From: Acidimicrobiia bacterium
GTDB taxonomy: Bacteria > Actinomycetota > Acidimicrobiia > Spongiisociales > Spongiisociaceae
NCBI GenBank assembly: GCA_011523635.1
Contig: WTGI01000035.1
Span: 39,213-103,212, forward strand
Reading direction: 5' to 3'
Length of the DNA stretch: 64,000 nucleotides
The translations under genes were made by a program, and so were the position numbers. This document shows positions 44,718 through 52,386 of this stretch, in pieces. The notes beneath the pieces were generated by a model, which was not told the origin of the DNA, searched no databases, and worked only from the letters and a program-made list of their open reading frames with translations. Every line of letters begins with the position of its first letter. Within the stretch, counting starts at the first letter, position 1.

Positions 44718-45959
44718 TCAGCCGTTGAGCGCCCAGGCGGCGAGGGCTTCGCTCCACAGGCCCAGCGATCCGGCCCGCTGTGCTCCCTCCCGGACCTCGC
44801 GATCGCTCGAGAACACCACCGCGGAGGCGCCCAAGCCCCCGGCCAGGTCGATCAGCTCGTCGTCGGCCTTCCACCCTTCACGCGTGTACCTGACCTCGAT
44901 CCCGTTGGGCAGGGTCTCGGCACTCGTCTCGCTTGCCCGGCCCGAGTCCCACACCACAGTGATCCGGGGGCGCCCCTTGGCCCGGACCTTCAACTCGGCG
45001 AGGTCGTTCTGCAGGCGATCCCGTATCTCGGGCTGGCTGAACCGATGGGGCGGGTACATCTTGGCGGTCACGTTGTAGCCGTCCACCAGCAGGACGAAGG
45101 GCCGGTCCAATTCGATCAACCACTCGACCGCTTGGGGGCTGTCGGGCGCCACCCCGGCCGGTAGGGCAAGCGGCTCCGAGCCGGAGGGAACCGGCTCCAT
45201 CACGACAGGATCCGGTCCCGGGAAGAAGGCCTGCACCACCTCATCCAGCCGCCGCGCCGCCTCCACCTCGTCCATGTCGGCCCACACGTTCGGCGCCTCC
45301 GTGCGGGCAGGCGGGGCATGCTCGATCCGCCGCTCCCGCTCCAGGTCCCGGCGCGTCTCGGCGAGGCGTCGCGCCGCCTCCTCCAGCTCGGCGCGGGCCG
45401 CCTCGAGCTCAGCCGCCAGCCGGCGGTTGTCCCTTCTCAGCCGATCGCAGGTTTCGATGAGCTCCGGTTCCACCGTGGATCGGGCCTCTTCCCATGCCTT
45501 TTCCACCCGGCGCTCGGCCTCGCGCATGGCTTCCTCCGCGTTCTCACGGGCTTGCCGGGCGTCGCCCTTCCACTTCTTCAACTCCGACTCCAACTCGCCG
45601 ATCCGCTGCTCGTGGCGTTCGATCCGAGCCGAGTTCCAGGCGTCGCGGAGGTCGCGGCGGATCCGCTCCAGCCGGTCCTCCCAGCCGTCCGGGCGCAGCA
45701 GGAAGAGCGCCGCCGCCTGCTCGTGGGGATCGTCGCCGTCCTCCGAACCGTCGAAGTCCTCTGCTACCTGCTCGCGCAACCACTCGTCATCGTCGATCTC
45801 CTTGAGGAGAAGCTTCTCGAGGGGCGCTGGCAGCCGCTGTCCCGTGCTCTGCGCGACCCGATGCATCGACCGCGGCACGTCGCGCCACTCCATGTCCCTC
45901 AGGGTCTCGCGGGCGGCCTCGACCACTTGGCGGAGGAGTCGGCGTTCCGGTTTGCGCAT
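44718..45959 (-). CDS. NYN-domain (YacP-like) predicted RNase with long coiled coil
   Basis: The 413-residue product has a helical N-terminal region, a long coiled coil (about 110-225, rich in Glu, Arg, Ala) and a C-terminal NYN/PIN-like nuclease domain. Acidic residues in LLVDGYNVTAKM, VVWDSG, WKADDELIDL and VVFSSDREV are the predicted metal ligands. YacP/Rae1-like proteins act as ribosome-associated RNases in Firmicutes; the same role here is inferred. A TACGAT -10 ends 6 nt before the ATG, so the mRNA is probably leaderless. Confidence 0.87.
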   Translation of the reverse strand: MRKPERRLLRQVVEAARETLRDMEWRDVPRSMHRVAQSTGQRLPAPLEKLLLKEIDDDEWLREQVAEDFDGSEDGDDPHEQAAALFLLRPDGWEDRLERIRRDLRDAWNSARIERHEQRIGELESELKKWKGDARQARENAEEAMREAERRVEKAWEEARSTVEPELIETCDRLRRDNRRLAAELEAARAELEEAARRLAETRRDLERERRIEHAPPARTEAPNVWADMDEVEAARRLDEVVQAFFPGPDPVVMEPVPSGSEPLALPAGVAPDSPQAVEWLIELDRPFVLLVDGYNVTAKMYPPHRFSQPEIRDRLQNDLAELKVRAKGRPRITVVWDSGRASETSAETLPNGIEVRYTREGWKADDELIDLAGGLGASAVVFSSDREVREGAQRAGSLGLWSEALAAWALNG

Positions 45960-46020: not shown

Positions 46021-46049
46021 TTGACATCACGGCCCGCATGCTCCATACT
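46021..46049 (+). promoter_or_regulatory. ilvB leader promoter (TTGACA-17-CATACT)
   Basis: A perfect -35 TTGACA at 46021-46026 and CATACT at 46044-46049 (4 of 6) are separated by 17 nt. Transcription would start near 46056, about 4 nt before the ATG of the leader peptide. Confidence 0.65.
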
Positions 46050-46059
46050 TCGGCATCTC

Positions 46060-46095
46060 ATGACCGGCCGCAGCCTCGTACTAGTACTTATGTAG
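46060..46095 (+). CDS. ilvB leader peptide MTGRSLVLVLM
   Basis: An 11-codon ORF reads MTGRSLVLVLM with codons CTC GTA CTA GTA CTT in a row, then TAG. Five consecutive Leu/Val codons just before strong RNA hairpins and a terminator are the hallmark of a transcription-attenuation leader. It lies about 4 nt after the predicted transcription start, so it would be translated almost leaderlessly. There is no Ile codon, so Leu and Val supply are the predicted signals. Attenuation of ilvB by leader peptides is known in actinobacteria. Confidence 0.75.
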   Translation: MTGRSLVLVLM

Positions 46096-46122
46096 CGCAC
46101 CGTCGCAACGCGACGTGTGCGC
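46095..46122 (+). promoter_or_regulatory. ilvB leader pause hairpin
   Basis: GCGCAC-CGTCGC (46095-46106) pairs with GCGACG-t-GTGCGC (46110-46122), twelve pairs with one bulge and a 3-nt loop. The 5' arm begins at the last base of the leader stop codon, so a ribosome stalled on the Leu/Val codons would mask it. Confidence 0.6.
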
Positions 46123-46124
46123 TC

Positions 46125-46150
46125 AGGCCCTCCATCCCGGAGGGCTTTCT
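46125..46150 (+). terminator. ilvB attenuator terminator
   Basis: GCCCTCC-atccc-GGAGGGC (46127-46145), extendable by AG/TT, is followed by TTTCT. It lies 29 nt after the leader peptide stop and 45 nt before ilvB. Confidence 0.65.
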
Positions 46151-46194
46151 GTATGAGGGCACCACAGGAACCAGCGAGACCAGCAAGGAAGCAG

Positions 46195-47895
46195 ATGGGC
46201 ATGATCACCGGCGCAGAGATACTGATCAAAGCACTCGAATACCAGGAGGTCGACACCGCCTTCGGCATCCCTGGCGGCGCCATCCTCCCCGCCTACGACC
46301 CGTTGCTCGACGCCGGATTCCGCCATATCCTCGCCCGCCACGAGCAGGGCGCCGGCCACATGGCCGAGGGCTACGCCTGGGCTACCGGGAAGGTCGGAGT
46401 GGCCATCGCCACCTCGGGTCCCGGCGCCACCAACCTGGTCACCCCGCTGGCGGACGCACTGATGGACTCGGTGCCCATAGTGGCAATCACCGGACAGGTG
46501 CCCACCCACGCCGTCGGTAACGACGCCTTCCAGGAGGCGCACACCACCGGCATCACCATGCCGGCCACCAAGCACAACTACTTCGTCACCCGCGCCGAGG
46601 AGATCGCCCAGACCGTCGCCGAGGCCTTCCACCTGGCGTCGACCGGACGTCCCGGGCCGGTGCTGGTCGATATCCCCAAGGACGTGCTCAACGCCCGCGT
46701 GCCATGGCGCGATCCGGAGCCGGTGGCCATGCCGGGATACCGTCCCACCGTCTCCCCCCACCCCCGCCGGGTGCGGGAGGCCATCCGGCTCATCGAGAGC
46801 GCGGAACGCCCCGTTCTCTACGTCGGGGGCGGCATCATCAAGGCGGGAGCGAGCGAGGCCCTGACCGCCTTCGCCCGCATGACGAACATGCCGGTCATCA
46901 CCACCCTGATGGGCCGGGGCGCCATCTCCGATCGCAATCCCAACACCCTGGGAATGCCGGGGATGCACGGCCTCTACGCCGCCACCACCGCCATGCAGAA
47001 GGCCGATCTGCTGGTGGCAATCGGCGTGCGCTTCGACGACCGGGTCACCGGAGATCCCGACGCCTTCGCTCCCTTCGCCAAGGTGATACATGCCGACATC
47101 GATCCGGCCGAGATCGGGAAGGTGCGCGCTCCGGAGGTTCCGATCGTCGGTGACGCCCGCCTGATTCTGGAGGCGATGTGCGAGCGCTGGGGAGACACGC
47201 CGACCCCGGAACTGGAGAAGTGGTGGACCACCATCAGGACGTGGCAGGAACGGCACCCGCTCCGCTTCGAGCAGCAGGCCGACGGTCCGCTGAAGCCCCA
47301 GCACGTGATCAGCCGCCTGCGGGACCGGGCGGACGATGACGCCATCGTCGTGTCGGGTGTGGGGCAGCATCAGATGTGGGCCTCCCAGTACTGGCGTTTC
47401 GACCAGCCCCGCCACTGGATCAACTCCGGCGGGCTAGGCACCATGGGGTTCGCAGTGCCGGCGGCCATCGGCGCCAAGGCCGGCATGCCCGACCAGCAGG
47501 TGATCGCCGTGGACGGAGACGGCTGCTTCCAGATGACCGTCCAGGAGCTGATAACCGCCGCCTACGAGCGGATCCCCATCAAGGTGGCCTTGTTCAACAA
47601 CGCTGCGCACGGCATGGTCCGCCAGTGGCAACGCCTCTTCTACAACGAGCGGTTCTCCGCCTCCGACCTCGGTCAACAGCTCCCGGACTACCCGAAGCTG
47701 GCCGAGTCCATGGGTTGCGCGGGGCTGCGCGCCACCCGGGTGGACGAGGTGGACCACGTGATCGAGACCATGATCGAGATCGACGACCGGCCGGTGGTGG
47801 CCGAGTTCGTGGTGGACCGTGACGAGATGGTCTTCCCGATGGTGCCCGCCGGCGGGTCCAACGACATCGTTCTCAACGGACCGGAGGATCTGTGA
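46195..47895 (+). CDS. ilvB: acetolactate synthase large subunit
   Basis: This thiamine-diphosphate enzyme makes acetolactate and acetohydroxybutyrate, the first common step to branched-chain amino acids. ATG 46195 follows AAGGAAGCAG and gives 566 residues; ATG 46201 is an alternative. The catalytic glutamate lies in ILARHEQGAGHMAEGYA. FAD and substrate-domain blocks include GMPGMHGLYAATTAMQKADLL, and the ThDP motif GDGCFQMTVQELITAA with FNNAAHGMVRQWQ follows. It overlaps ilvN by 4 nt (GTGA). Confidence 0.97.
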   Translation: MGMITGAEILIKALEYQEVDTAFGIPGGAILPAYDPLLDAGFRHILARHEQGAGHMAEGYAWATGKVGVAIATSGPGATNLVTPLADALMDSVPIVAITGQVPTHAVGNDAFQEAHTTGITMPATKHNYFVTRAEEIAQTVAEAFHLASTGRPGPVLVDIPKDVLNARVPWRDPEPVAMPGYRPTVSPHPRRVREAIRLIESAERPVLYVGGGIIKAGASEALTAFARMTNMPVITTLMGRGAISDRNPNTLGMPGMHGLYAATTAMQKADLLVAIGVRFDDRVTGDPDAFAPFAKVIHADIDPAEIGKVRAPEVPIVGDARLILEAMCERWGDTPTPELEKWWTTIRTWQERHPLRFEQQADGPLKPQHVISRLRDRADDDAIVVSGVGQHQMWASQYWRFDQPRHWINSGGLGTMGFAVPAAIGAKAGMPDQQVIAVDGDGCFQMTVQELITAAYERIPIKVALFNNAAHGMVRQWQRLFYNERFSASDLGQQLPDYPKLAESMGCAGLRATRVDEVDHVIETMIEIDDRPVVAEFVVDRDEMVFPMVPAGGSNDIVLNGPEDL

Positions 47896-48395
47896 CCGAG
47901 CAGCAGGTATTGAGCGTCCTGGTAGAGAACAAGCCGGGTGTCCTGGCGAGGGTGTCTTCACTGTTCGCCCGGCGGGGATTCAACATCCACTCCCTAGCGG
48001 TGGGGCCGGCCGCCGACCCGGGGTTGTCGAAGATGACCATCGTGGTGCGGGCGCCGGAACTCGAGCAGGTCAAGAAGCAGCTTCACAAGCTGGTCAACGT
48101 GGTGAAGATCACGGAGTTGGACCCCGGGTCCTCGATCGAGCGCGAGATCATGCTGGTCAGGGTGCGCGCCGGCTCCCGGCAACGGTCCGAGGTCCTGCAG
48201 CTGGCTTCCATCTTCAGGGCGACACCGGTCGACGTGGGGGTCGACTCCATCACGTTCATGGTCACCGGCTCCCCCGCCAAACTGAACGATCTGCTCGAGC
48301 TGATCCGCCCGTTCGGGCTCGTGGACCTGGTGAAGTCGGGACGGATCGCCATGAACCGCGAACCCAAGGCCCGCAAGCTCAAGGCGGTGGGATGA
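47892..48395 (+). CDS. ilvN: acetolactate synthase regulatory subunit, GTG start
   Basis: It activates IlvB and makes it sensitive to valine feedback. The GTG at 47892 overlaps the ilvB stop. It has 167 residues: an ACT domain at the N-terminus ([36 protein letters not shown]) and the C-terminal ALS-ss domain ([31 protein letters not shown]). Length is normal for the short bacterial form. Confidence 0.97.
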
Positions 48396-48420
48396 CGTTC
48401 CGCCGGCGCCCCGTTACGAT
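48392..48420 (+). promoter_or_regulatory. possible internal promoter before ilvC
   Basis: ATGACG at 48392-48397 and TACGAT at 48415-48420 have a 17-nt spacer, each matching consensus at four positions. The ilvC start with its GGAAGG lies 33 nt further. It would allow ilvC expression independent of the ilvB attenuator. Confidence 0.35.
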
Positions 48421-48453
48421 TCCCGACCGGTCAGCGACCCCCGGAAGGTAGAC

Positions 48454-49464
48454 ATGGCTGCAATCTTCTACGACGACGATGCCGATCCCGCCGCCGTATC
48501 GAGCCGCAAGGTGGCGGTCATCGGCTACGGGAGCCAGGGACACGCCCACGCCCTGAACCTGCGGGAGTCGGGAATCGAGGTGAGGGTCGGCCTCAGGGAG
48601 TCGTCCCGGAGCCGCACCGACGCCCAGGACGAAGGCCTGGTGGTCGGTAGCGTGGCGGAGGTCTCCGACTGGGCGGACGTGGTGATGATGCTGGTGCCCG
48701 ATCAGCACATGGCGGACCTCTACGCAGCCGAGGTCGCCCCCAATCTGGCGGACGGCGACGCCCTGATGTTCGCCCACGGCTTCAACATCCACTTCGACGA
48801 GATCACCCCGGACCCGGGCCTCGACGTGCTGATGGTGGCTCCGAAAGGTCCCGGACACCTGGTGCGACGCACCTACACGGAAGGTTCAGGGGTTCCATGC
48901 CTGCTGGCGATCCACCAGGACGCCACGGACGGCGCCCATGCCCTCGGCCTGGCCTATGCGTGGGGTATCGGCGGCACCCGCGCCGGCGTGCTGGAGACCA
49001 CCTTCCGCGAGGAGACGGAGACCGACCTGTTCGGGGAGCAGGTCATCCTCTGCGGCGGGTTGTCGGCACTGGTCAAGGCCTCCTTCGAAACGCTGGTCGA
49101 GGCGGGCTACGCACCCGAGTCGGCCTATTTCGAGACCCTCCACGAGTTGAAGCTGATCGTCGACCTGATGTACGAGGGCGGACTGTCCTGGATGAGATAC
49201 TCGGTCTCCGACACCGCCGAATGGGGCGACTACAGCACCGGCCCGCGGATCATCACCGACGAGACCCGGCAGGTCATGCAGGATGTGCTGGCTGACATCC
49301 GTTCGGGCCGGTTCGCCCGCGATTGGATGGCCGAAGCCCGGGCCGGAGCGCCCGAGTTGCTGCGACGGCGGGCGGCTGAGCGCAGCCACCCGGTCGAGCA
49401 GGTGGGCGCCGGGCTCCGCGAGCTGATGCCCTTCCTCACCCCCAAGACCCCGAGCGACCGATGA
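48454..49464 (+). CDS. ilvC: ketol-acid reductoisomerase, class I
   Basis: It converts acetolactate to dihydroxyisovalerate with NADPH and magnesium. It has 336 residues. The Rossmann motif [17 protein letters not shown] is followed by [10 protein letters not shown], whose Ser/Arg loop is typical of NADPH specificity. Metal and substrate residues sit in [26 protein letters not shown] and [18 protein letters not shown]. Its stop overlaps the ATG of the leuA leader ORF as ATGA. Confidence 0.97.
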
Positions 49465-49565
49465 GCCGCAAGGAACACCCGTCGCCCGTCCCCGCTCCGG
49501 TCGGTCCCGGCCGGTTCCTGCTCCGGCGGCTTCTGGCGCTATCGGGCCTCCACGACCCGACGTAG
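49461..49565 (+). CDS. leuA leader peptide, Leu-rich, 34 residues
   Basis: An ORF starting within the ilvC stop (ATGA overlap) encodes 34 residues. It ends in [16 protein letters not shown], with six Leu codons within twelve, then TAG. The last codons and the stop lie in the 5' arm and loop of a 12-bp perfect hairpin (49546-49576). This arrangement is that of a leucine-responsive leader peptide ahead of leuA. Leader control of leuA is known in actinobacteria; here it sits inside an operon, coupled to ilvC translation. Confidence 0.7.
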
Positions 49566-49576
49566 GTCGTGGAGGC
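49546..49576 (+). terminator. leuA leader hairpin (12-bp perfect stem)
   Basis: GCCTCCACGACC (49546-49557) pairs exactly with GGTCGTGGAGGC (49565-49576) around a 7-nt loop containing most of the leader stop codon. The following sequence is C-rich, not T-rich, so it may act through Rho, pausing or translation rather than as a classical terminator. It lies 60 nt before leuA. Confidence 0.6.
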
Positions 49577-49636
49577 ACCCCCTCCCCGCATCACCGCCAA
49601 CCCATCCACTACCTCATCCAACCGGAGCAGACAGCC

Positions 49637-51169
49637 ATGCCACAGGACAAACTGATCATCTTCGACACCACCCTCCGCGACGGGGAACAGGCGCCCGGAA
49701 TCGCCCTGACCCCTGACGAGAAACTCACGATCGCCCGGCAGCTCGCCAGGCTGCGGGTGGACGTCATCGAGGCCGGCTTCGCAGCCGCCTCCGACGGCGA
49801 CTTCTACGGTGTCTCCCAGATCGCGAAGCTGGTCAAGGGCCCGGTGATCGCCTCGCTGGCCCGGTGCACGCCCGACGACATCGACCGCGCCTACGACGCG
49901 GTCCGCCATGCGGAGCGCCACCGCCTCCACGTATTCCAGAGCACCTCCCCCATCCACATGGAACGGATGCTCCGCATGACTCCCGCCGAGGTGATGCAGT
50001 CGATCATCGAGTCGGTCCGCCGGGCCCGGCGCTACACGGACGATGTCGAGTTCTCGCCCCAGGACGCCACCCGCTCGGATCCGGACTTCATGATCGCCAC
50101 CTGCCAGGCGGCGGTCCGGGAGGGCGCCACCACCATCAACATCCCCGACACGGTGGGCTTCGCCACCCCCCAGGACTATGTCGAGTTGCTGCGGCGGGTT
50201 TACGACGAGGTGCTCGAGAGCAGGGACGATGTGATCGTGTCGACCCATTGCCACAACGACCTGGGGCTGGCCGTCGCCAACTCGTTGACCGCCATCCATG
50301 CGGGGGCCCGCCAGATCGAGGGGGCCATCAACGGGATCGGCGAACGGGCCGGAAACACCTCCACCGAGGAGGTGATCATGGCCGTCACCACCCGCCAGGA
50401 CCATTTCGGGGTGGAAGTCGGCGCCAACACCGCCGAGATCGTGCCCACTAGCCGGCTGGTCTCCCGCCTCACCGGGTATCCCATCCAGTTCAACAAGGCG
50501 GTGGTGGGACGCAACGCCTTCGCCCACGAGTCCGGAATCCATCAGCACGGGGTGCTCCGCGACCGGGAAACCTACGAGATCATGGATCCCGAGTCGGTGG
50601 GAACGACCAGCCAGATCGTGCTGGGGAAGCACTCCGGACGCGCCGGATTCGCCGACGCTCTGTCCAAGCTCGACATCGTGTTGGAGGATGACCAGTTCAA
50701 CGAGGCTTTCCTTGCCTTCAAGGAGATGGCCGACCGGAAGGTGGAGATAAACGAGCAGGAGCTCCGTGCCATCATCCGTCACGGAAGCCGCCGCGTCCCG
50801 GACGCCATACGGATGGTGTCGATGCGGGTACGAGGGGGTACGGACGTGGAGCCCACCGCCACCGTGGTAGTGGCTCGCGGAGAGGGATCCGAGACCGAGG
50901 AGTTCACCGGCACCGGAGGCGGAATGGTGGACGCCACCTTCGCCGCGCTCAGGAAGGCGTCCGGGCTGGACCCCCACCTCCTGGACTACCGGGTGGTGCC
51001 GGTCACGTCCGGAGCCGACGCCATGGCCGAGGTCAACGTGGTGATCCAGATCGACGGTATGTCCCGGAGCGGACGAGCAATCTCTACAGATGTGGTTGAA
51101 GGTTCGGGTCATGCCTTCGTCGAAGCCCTCAACCGGGTACTGAACGCCGGCGCCGGGACGGCGGCATAG
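49637..51169 (+). CDS. leuA: 2-isopropylmalate synthase
   Basis: It condenses acetyl-CoA with ketoisovalerate, the committed step to leucine. It has 510 residues. The HMGL-like domain has FDTTLRDGEQAPG, the metal ligands in STHCHNDLGLAVANS, and GNTSTEEVIMA. AFAHESGIHQHG and LGKHSGRAGF follow. The C-terminal regulatory domain (about 390-510) provides leucine feedback in this family. Its TAG stop coincides with the left boundary of a TA-flanked inverted-repeat element. Confidence 0.97.
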   Translation: MPQDKLIIFDTTLRDGEQAPGIALTPDEKLTIARQLARLRVDVIEAGFAAASDGDFYGVSQIAKLVKGPVIASLARCTPDDIDRAYDAVRHAERHRLHVFQSTSPIHMERMLRMTPAEVMQSIIESVRRARRYTDDVEFSPQDATRSDPDFMIATCQAAVREGATTINIPDTVGFATPQDYVELLRRVYDEVLESRDDVIVSTHCHNDLGLAVANSLTAIHAGARQIEGAINGIGERAGNTSTEEVIMAVTTRQDHFGVEVGANTAEIVPTSRLVSRLTGYPIQFNKAVVGRNAFAHESGIHQHGVLRDRETYEIMDPESVGTTSQIVLGKHSGRAGFADALSKLDIVLEDDQFNEAFLAFKEMADRKVEINEQELRAIIRHGSRRVPDAIRMVSMRVRGGTDVEPTATVVVARGEGSETEEFTGTGGGMVDATFAALRKASGLDPHLLDYRVVPVTSGADAMAEVNVVIQIDGMSRSGRAISTDVVEGSGHAFVEALNRVLNAGAGTAA

Positions 51170-51271
51170 GGGGGTACTGAAAAATATGCCGTCGGCCCGA
51201 TAGCCGGAGACAAGACCCCAGGTAGAAGCCTCGCGCGGGCCAACCAATCCCCGTCTTTTTCAGCACCCTCC
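51169..51271. mobile_element. MITE-like element between leuA and leuB, TA-flanked
   Basis: GGGGGGTACTGAAAAA (51169-51184) and TTTTTCAGCACCCTCC (51256-51271) are inverted repeats matching at 14 of 16 positions. TA lies directly outside both ends (51167-51168 and 51272-51273), as for TA-targeting IS630/Tc1-mariner-like transposons. The 103-bp interior encodes nothing. A transcription-termination hairpin is the alternative reading. Confidence 0.5.
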
Positions 51272-51290
51272 TAGAAGACCACTAAAACCT

Positions 51291-51296
51291 TATGAT
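51291..51296 (+). promoter_or_regulatory. -10-like TATGAT before leuB
   Basis: TATGAT (5 of 6) lies 22 nt before the leuB ATG and just downstream of the MITE-like element. No -35 was recognised. It could give leuB its own promoter. Confidence 0.35.
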
Positions 51297-51318
51297 GGAC
51301 GGTTAAGATCACCGGCTG

Positions 51319-52386
51319 ATGAGCGAACGACGGCACCGGCTGGCGGTCATCGCCGGAGATGGAATCGGACCCGAGGTAATCGTTCAGGCTCTCAAGGCCG
51401 TGGAAGCAGCCGGCGACCGGTGCGGGTTCGCCGTCGAGACCGAGCGTTACGACCTGGGAGGGAACCGGTATCTCGCCACCGGCGAGGTGCTGCCCGACTC
51501 CGTGGAGCAGGAGCTCAGCGGCTTCGACGCCATCCTGATCGGAGCGGTCGGCACGCCTGACGTGCCGCCGGGAGTCCTCGAACGCGGGCTGCTCCTGAGG
51601 TTGAGATTCAACTTCCAGCTCTACGTGAACCTCAGGCCTGTCAAGTTGTTGCCCGGCGTAGCCACTCCCATCGCGGGTCTCACACCCGACCGTTGCGACA
51701 TACTGGTCGTCAGGGAGAACACGGAGGGCCCGTATGTCGGAGCGGGCGGCGTGCTCCGCGAGGGCACGCCGGCCGAGGTAGCCGTCGAGGAGTCGCTCAA
51801 CACCCGCTTCGGCGTAGAGCGGATCGTCCGTTTCGCGTTCGAACAGGCCATGGGACGGCGGAAGCACCTAACCCTGGGACACAAGACCAACGTCCTCACC
51901 TACGCGGGAGGCCTCTGGTACCGGACGCTCCACGAGATCGCCGAGCACTACCCCGACGTGGAGGTGGAATACGCCCACGTGGACGCCATGTGCCTGCACC
52001 TGGTCACCCAACCCGAGCGCTTCGATGTGATCGTCACCGACAACCTGTTCGGTGACATCGTCACCGACCTCGGCGCCGCGGTGCAGGGGGGCATGGGTCT
52101 GGCCGCGAGCGGCAACATCAACCCCGAGGGCGACTACCCGTCCCTGTTCGAGCCCGTACACGGTTCGGCGCCCGACATCGTGGGACGGGGATGGGCCAAC
52201 CCGGTGGCGGCGGTGCTGTCAGCCGCCATGTGCCTCTCCCACCTGGGCGAGCACCGGGCGGCGTCGATCGTGGAGGATGCGGTCGGCGCGGTGCTACCCA
52301 CCATGAGATCGATGGGAGGACCCGACATGGGGGCCTCCACCGAACAGCTGGGCGACCGGATAGCCGCTGCCGTGGCGGAAGCCTGA
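51319..52386 (+). CDS. leuB: 3-isopropylmalate dehydrogenase
   Basis: It oxidatively decarboxylates 3-isopropylmalate with NAD, the last pathway-specific leucine step before transamination. It has 355 residues. Motifs: [12 protein letters not shown], substrate arginines in [32 protein letters not shown], the metal aspartates in [23 protein letters not shown], and the cofactor region [20 protein letters not shown]. leuC and leuD are not in this window. Confidence 0.96.

Follow-up and report, generated by a model that had tools for sequence, protein, structure and literature searches.

The stretch of DNA analyzed here (the window, 64,000 nucleotides) comes from an Acidimicrobiia genome of 3.15 Mb in 91 contigs and contains, on the plus strand, the consecutive genes ilvB-ilvN-ilvC-leuA-leuB, with names checked against NCBIfam. 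The leading gene of the operon, ilvB for the large subunit of acetolactate synthase (46195 to 47895; TIGR00118, E 9e-231), starts with an ATG at position 46195 behind a Shine-Dalgarno site, AAGGA, at 46185 to 46189. The genes ilvN, ilvC, leuA, and leuB (47892 to 52386), all NCBIfam equivalogs and co-directional, presumably form the remainder of the operon. The upstream neighbor of ilvB is divergently oriented (44718 to 45959, minus strand) and encodes a protein of 413 aa whose C-terminus is a YacP-like NYN (RNase-like) domain and whose middle part is long, charged, and probably a coiled coil.

A preliminary description of the leader region upstream of ilvB had listed a promoter, a short open reading frame with five consecutive Leu/Val codons, a hairpin beginning at the stop codon of this frame, and a GC-rich hairpin followed by TTTCT, and all of these elements were recovered on the plus strand. 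The promoter TTGACA-17-CATACT was read directly at 46021 to 46049 (TTGACA at 46021 to 46026, CATACT at 46044 to 46049); it is the sole promoter-like site in 500 bases, in which 0.1 sites would be expected by chance, and is kept in relatives. The 11-codon leader peptide frame MTGRSLVLVLM extends from the ATG at 46060 to the TAG at 46093 to 46095 (ATG ACC GGC CGC AGC CTC GTA CTA GTA CTT ATG TAG), and this frame is also kept in relatives. Its putative sensing codons, CTC GTA CTA GTA CTT, occupy 46075 to 46089, with one codon between the final Leu/Val codon and the stop. Hairpin H1 (46094 to 46123, 13 pairs with one bulge) starts within the stop codon. Two nucleotides past H1 follows a predicted intrinsic terminator (46126 to 46150), composed of a stem-loop at 46126 to 46146 and a T-run to 46150, with TTCT directly after the stem-loop. 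The fold of the leader reached −42.3 kcal/mol compared to −28.4 ± 3.2 kcal/mol for shuffled sequences (z = −4.4). A simple terminator scan listed no terminator in this leader because it required five T in eight bases and the tail in the window is TTTCT; many relatives contain TTTTT or a longer T-run at the equivalent position. A search of the leader with the Rfam 15 covariance models gave no match at the gathering score, either to ilvB-OMG or to any other family, and only two unrelated sub-threshold matches on the opposite strand.

Of 59 relatives, 57 possess an IlvB-like protein that could be located, and the regions upstream of the best 30 were inspected. The identical arrangement was present in all 29 readable ones, the thirtieth being N-masked. 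Conservation of the peptide frame and of the terminator stem had been set beforehand as a test of the attenuator idea, and both are kept across the order. A covariance model built on 21 ilvB leaders (R1) gave matches in 110 of 138 genomes for the order and in 207 of 296 for the class, the latter sample including genomes of the order. A broader model (R2), run on 397 genomes sampled across the phylum, matched in 78 genomes, 49 of them outside the class, where matches were sporadic; those that were read were mostly ilvB leaders, with one (L180) lacking a gene assignment. The stronger matches of a codon-free model (R3) in 15 genomes were restricted to branched-chain operons and included no other amino acid operon, with the proviso that this model would overlook any device whose H1 has a very different sequence. 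The weaker matches of R3 resembled chance, and one of them was a tRNA gene followed by a hairpin. An exact pattern scan returned 16 matches; the named contigs with the motif were mostly Acidimicrobiia metagenome-assembled genomes, and the matches in Amphritea and Bacteroidales, having neither leader nor ilvB, were discarded as chance. Genomes of one family of the order (f8; G021, G028, G034, G041, G048, and G053) possess neither a strong ilvB homologue nor the leader, and this joint absence suggests that branched-chain amino acid synthesis was lost in them.

The common layout is a frame predicted to be near-leaderless, with four sensing codons, one spacer codon, and the stop, from which H1 starts, followed by the terminator 0 to 6 nt further on. 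A total of 113 leaders was evaluated, with the downstream genes sorted by motif into 70 ilvB, 30 cimA, 6 leuB-like, and 6 leuA, plus one leader without an assigned gene. In the 70 ilvB leaders, codons −5 to −2 before the stop specify Ile, Leu, or Val in 97 to 100% of the cases and codon −1 in 7%. This register is the one that a stall sensor would need. The sensing codons moreover favor rare synonyms. With the genes of the window alone as background and leader codons drawn from many genomes, GTA contributed 71% of the Val codons in ilvB leaders versus 4.5% in the genes, CTT 35% of the Leu codons versus 4.2%, and ATT 57% of the Ile codons versus 3.5%; GTG and CTG, the most frequent genomic codons, are almost missing from the ilvB leaders. 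Arrest by the nascent peptide is unlikely because the residues change with the downstream gene and there is no conservation in the N-terminal part. Starvation-induced frameshifting or stop codon read-through, which would carry the ribosome across the terminator, was rejected because the three frames hardly differ in openness, being open in 68, 64, and 61 of 71 leaders with about 49 expected per frame from shuffles, and no frame was clearly favored.

H1 starts at position +1 or +2 of the stop codon in 55 of 71 leaders, and the gap between H1 and the terminator is 0 to 6 nt in every one of the 71, with a median of 2 nt. In an alignment of 72 leaders, changes on both sides were seen for 17 of 18 base pairs (11 of 11 modeled pairs in H1 and 6 of 7 in the terminator), counts that lean toward the structure since the alignment was fitted to it and that do not represent independent events since the sequences are related. 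The aligned cells were paired in 93% of the cases, compared to 80% in shuffles and 28 to 72% when the partners were slid. When arms were permuted between leaders, the arms of H1 and those of the terminator preferred their cognate partners, and none of 200 permutations was as strong. H1 paired more poorly with the 5′ arm of its own terminator than with foreign arms (200 of 200 permutations stronger), as if both hairpins were kept insulated from each other.

The preliminary description had also predicted a very short 5′ untranslated region, and the promoter positions fit such a near-leaderless start. With the leader start picked as the nearest in-frame ATG or else GTG, a promoter was located 4 to 14 nt before the start in 30 of 36 ilvB leaders of the order (1.2 expected) and in 20 of 21 cimA leaders (0.3 expected). 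The end of the −10 site is typically 9 to 10 nt before the leader start, with a range of 8 to 14 nt and a mode of 10 in these 30 ilvB leaders, and Shine-Dalgarno-like sites ahead of the ilvB and cimA leader starts of the order were at or below chance. Assuming that transcription starts about 6 to 7 nt past the −10 site, the predicted 5′ untranslated region would be about 0 to 8 nt, and the leader ATG in the window is predicted about 3 to 4 nt past the transcript start. Outside the class, the ilvB leaders of family f64 have H1 and the terminator directly abutting, and AGGAG is located ahead of the GTG start in six leaders of this family (L167, L171, L172, L174, L178, and L185), so the leaderless form does not seem to be essential to the device.

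Further R1 matches in the same genomes precede cimA (TIGR00977), two types of leuA (the leuA leaders being L104/L145, L153, L154, L155, and L156), and leuB-like genes (L139, L146, L150, L151, L166, and L179). In these leaders, found with a model whose columns favor T at second codon positions, the sensing codons differ with the gene: 41% Leu, 45% Val, and 13% Ile in ilvB leaders, 83% Ile in cimA leaders, 100% Leu in long-type leuA leaders, and 62% Ile and 29% Val in leuB-like leaders. Runs of Ile and Leu were not built into R1 because it was trained solely on ilvB leaders. With Leu/Val on ilvB, Ile on cimA, Leu on leuA, and Ile/Val on the leuB-like genes, the codons thus follow the pathway product. 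The genome of the window has a second copy itself (L148, G000:C36:153230-153301), which encodes MSIHTGIIID ahead of cimA and likewise possesses a promoter just upstream of the start. The missing Ile codon in the ilvB leader of the window, which had been remarked upon as unusual, is a trait of the genus with one exception (L011, with one Ile), and in the window it is probably accounted for by the cimA leader of the same genome, which reads Ile. Ile would thus be read on the Ile-specific gene cimA and Leu/Val on the ilvBNC-leuAB operon, a regulation predicted from the sequences. Usually leuB is a leucine gene; the leuB-like enzymes with Ile/Val leaders perhaps serve the citramalate route to isoleucine. 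One genome with a standard ilvB leader contains, in addition, a weak match (L210, G043:C139:20807-20867) immediately ahead of another, partial ilvB-like match, and the apparent leader tail of L210 reads Ile-Ile-Ile-Ser-stop (TGA). In the open-access literature, no report was found that links Acidimicrobiia or citramalate synthase to leader-peptide attenuation.

A classical attenuator requires an antiterminator, and the doubt already expressed about such a structure was justified. In the test used, the 3′ arm of the terminator was treated as not yet made, and the probability that upstream RNA occupies the 5′ arm was calculated. In the starved state, the mean occupancy was 0.09 in 71 leaders versus 0.56 to 0.90 in seven Escherichia coli leaders with the same code. 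Six of these seven controls displayed the expected drop in occupancy with the ribosome at the stop codon, and the seventh, his, displayed it only weakly. In the published Corynebacterium ulcerans leader, with the stop set one codon early, a ribosome stalled at the first regulatory codon gave an occupancy of the terminator base of 1.0, which fell to 0.01 once the ribosome was near the stop. Occupancy test and arm permutations together revealed no conserved antiterminator sharing bases with the terminator in the 71 leaders, nor did upstream RNA pair with the terminator arm as the P1 loop of the Corynebacterium ilvB-II motif does. Occupancy of the terminator bases increased upon starvation in 5 of 71 leaders and changed in the opposite direction in 23; in one lineage (L029, L031, and L055), H1 is overlapped by an alternative arm of the terminator. 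Permutations between leaders that covered the sensing codons, H1, both terminator arms, and the RNA downstream indicated no cognate preference apart from a small one of the sensing codons for the 3′ arm of the terminator, in ilvB leaders only and not in those of cimA, and a weak one of the sensing codons for the 3′ half of H1 (5 of 200). Of the elements of a classical attenuator, the leader frame with pathway codons and a predicted intrinsic terminator are present and the base-sharing antiterminator was looked for and not found, so the device, although it would operate in the manner of a ribosome-mediated attenuator, was placed apart from the classical attenuators. If stalling prevents termination at these leaders, it should therefore do so in another way than that of the textbook.

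Anatomy, conservation, covariation, register, the match between codons and pathway, and the missing conserved pairing antiterminator are properties of the sequences themselves. A model of their action was built on a predicted transcript start, assumed ribosome edges, and a proposed step from H1 to the terminator. The transcript would begin only a few bases ahead of the ATG of the leader, and the ribosome would initiate at the 5′ end of this transcript. With charged Leu and Val tRNAs plentiful, the ribosome would reach the stop codon and cover the 5′ arm of H1, and the terminator would halt transcription. With Leu or Val scarce, it would be halted on a rare Leu/Val codon with its front edge at or before the base of H1, which would then fold. 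If RNA is assumed to become available for pairing about 8 to 10 nt past the first base of the codon in the A site, H1 stays wholly or almost wholly accessible while the ribosome waits on any of the four sensing codons, whereas a ribosome at the stop removes most of the 5′ arm. A biosynthetic operon should be on in starved cells, so folded H1 should oppose termination. Since no conserved base-sharing switch was found and the hairpins look insulated, hindrance by abutment is proposed: folded H1, 0 to 6 nt from the terminator, would hinder completion of the terminator hairpin at the exit channel of RNA polymerase without any shared bases, and ilvBNC-leuAB would be transcribed. Judged by geometry and what is generally known of RNA polymerase, the base of a finished terminator hairpin would sit in the RNA exit channel, leaving no space for another duplex only a few bases before it. 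A proposal that neighboring hairpins aid termination (PMC8355165) counts against hindrance by abutment. Folding by energy alone predicted the terminator in both ribosome states, with a mean probability of 0.91 to 0.95, so the proposed hindrance is not a computed result.

Attenuation of some kind at these leaders is highly probable. That they represent a compact and nearly leaderless type of attenuator for branched-chain amino acids, in which a ribosome-gated H1 opposes the terminator without shared bases, is the favored reading and a reasonably likely one. The final step taken alone, hindrance by abutment, is tentative and may well be wrong.

The closest competitor keeps the ribosome-gated hairpin and lets folded H1 act through a pause of RNA polymerase or a protein bound to H1 or to the paused complex. 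Hairpins that cause pausing and antitermination factors that bind RNA are generally known, and the base of H1 beside the stop (GCGCA...UGCGC) is more conserved in sequence than the stem alone requires. Its outer and inner pairs nevertheless all vary with compensation, no candidate factor is in hand, and the placement of H1 within 6 nt of the terminator would be left unexplained, making this explanation rather unlikely. Less likely again is a classical attenuator with an antiterminator that was missed because it uses non-canonical pairs, a pseudoknot, or a few overlapping bases. In C. glutamicum the switch overlaps by only three bases (PMC11857589), and the five leaders with increased occupancy, the lineage with the alternative arm, and the small cognate signal of the ilvB sensing codons could be traces of such a structure. 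This signal is, however, absent from the cimA leaders and sits in RNA covered by the ribosome; more leaders shifted in the opposite direction, the occupancy was far below that of the E. coli controls, and the same approach does detect the Corynebacterium leader.

Two further explanations abandon the stall-dependent release. H1 and the terminator could form one composite terminator, as proposed for clustered adjacent hairpins (PMC8355165), and the leader would set a fixed expression level or act with the opposite sign. A correct response of such a terminator would call for sensing codons inside H1, but the actual codons finish 3 nt ahead of the stop, with H1 left free, and gene-matched codon runs and rare codons would be purposeless, so that there is very little to be said for it. 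Finally, the near-perfect palindrome with its conserved base near the promoter might be a DNA operator for a dimeric repressor instead of an RNA hairpin. The arms are separated by anything from 3 to about 12 nt, G-U pairs occur (at one position, for instance, in 9 of 71 leaders), every pair shows covariation, and the repeat keeps a fixed place relative to the stop codon of the leader, which leaves this explanation hardly credible.

Parts of the favored attenuator are known from other systems. The E. coli trp, his, leu, thr, phe, and ilv attenuators also combine a run of cognate codons with an intrinsic terminator before the first gene; they differ, in a side-by-side comparison, by a pairing that pre-empts the terminator. 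The ilvL leader before ilvBHC in Streptomyces lividans and S. coelicolor (MRTRILVLGKRVG; PMC8079986) likewise has a short frame with an Ile-Leu-Val-Leu run, hairpins, and a U-rich stretch, the frame being leaderless as is predicted here, but has five codons between run and stop instead of the one in the Acidimicrobiia leaders. According to a citation in PMC1262725, mutated regulatory codons were reported to be without effect in S. coelicolor. For ilvB1 of Mycobacterium tuberculosis, with LVVI codons in a short upstream frame and an intrinsic terminator, attenuation was demonstrated by codon mutation; its leader of 166 nt differs by a predicted anti-terminator that is mutually exclusive with the terminator (PMC13236596). 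The Corynebacterium ilvB-II motif and ilvBNC of C. glutamicum share CUU and GUA control codons and a terminator abutting the preceding hairpin, and have a leaderless start of the kind predicted here, but there P1 spans the frame and the antiterminator overlaps the terminator by GCC (PMC10272879, PMC11857589), whereas in the Acidimicrobiia leaders H1 starts from the stop codon in nearly all cases and does not overlap with the terminator. The actinobacterial ilvB leaders of Seliverstov et al. (2005) also have branched-chain codons and a terminator with other attenuator elements not found, and their mode of regulation was called unclear; in contrast to the Acidimicrobiia leaders, they have codon runs that overlap with the hairpins of the terminators. 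The genomes listed in that study include no Acidimicrobiia, and no cimA or leuB leaders were reported (PMC1262725).

The leaders described here support, by comparison between genomes, an architecture that has been on record for Actinobacteria since 2005, with leader peptides and terminators but other attenuator elements missing (PMC1262725). For the Ile-reading leader on citramalate synthase, no prior description was found in the open-access literature. One compact cassette appears to be re-codable for different amino acids on different genes of a single pathway. It is conceivable, with the balance slightly on the negative side, that these leaders form a class-wide attenuator family in which a ribosome-gated hairpin suppresses an abutting terminator by proximity alone and which was re-coded for ilvB, cimA, leuA, and leuB-like genes. 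If H1 acts by abutment, this would be a minimal switch of one hairpin and one terminator without alternative pairing, easily overlooked by genome scans that seek antiterminators and easily tested in vitro.
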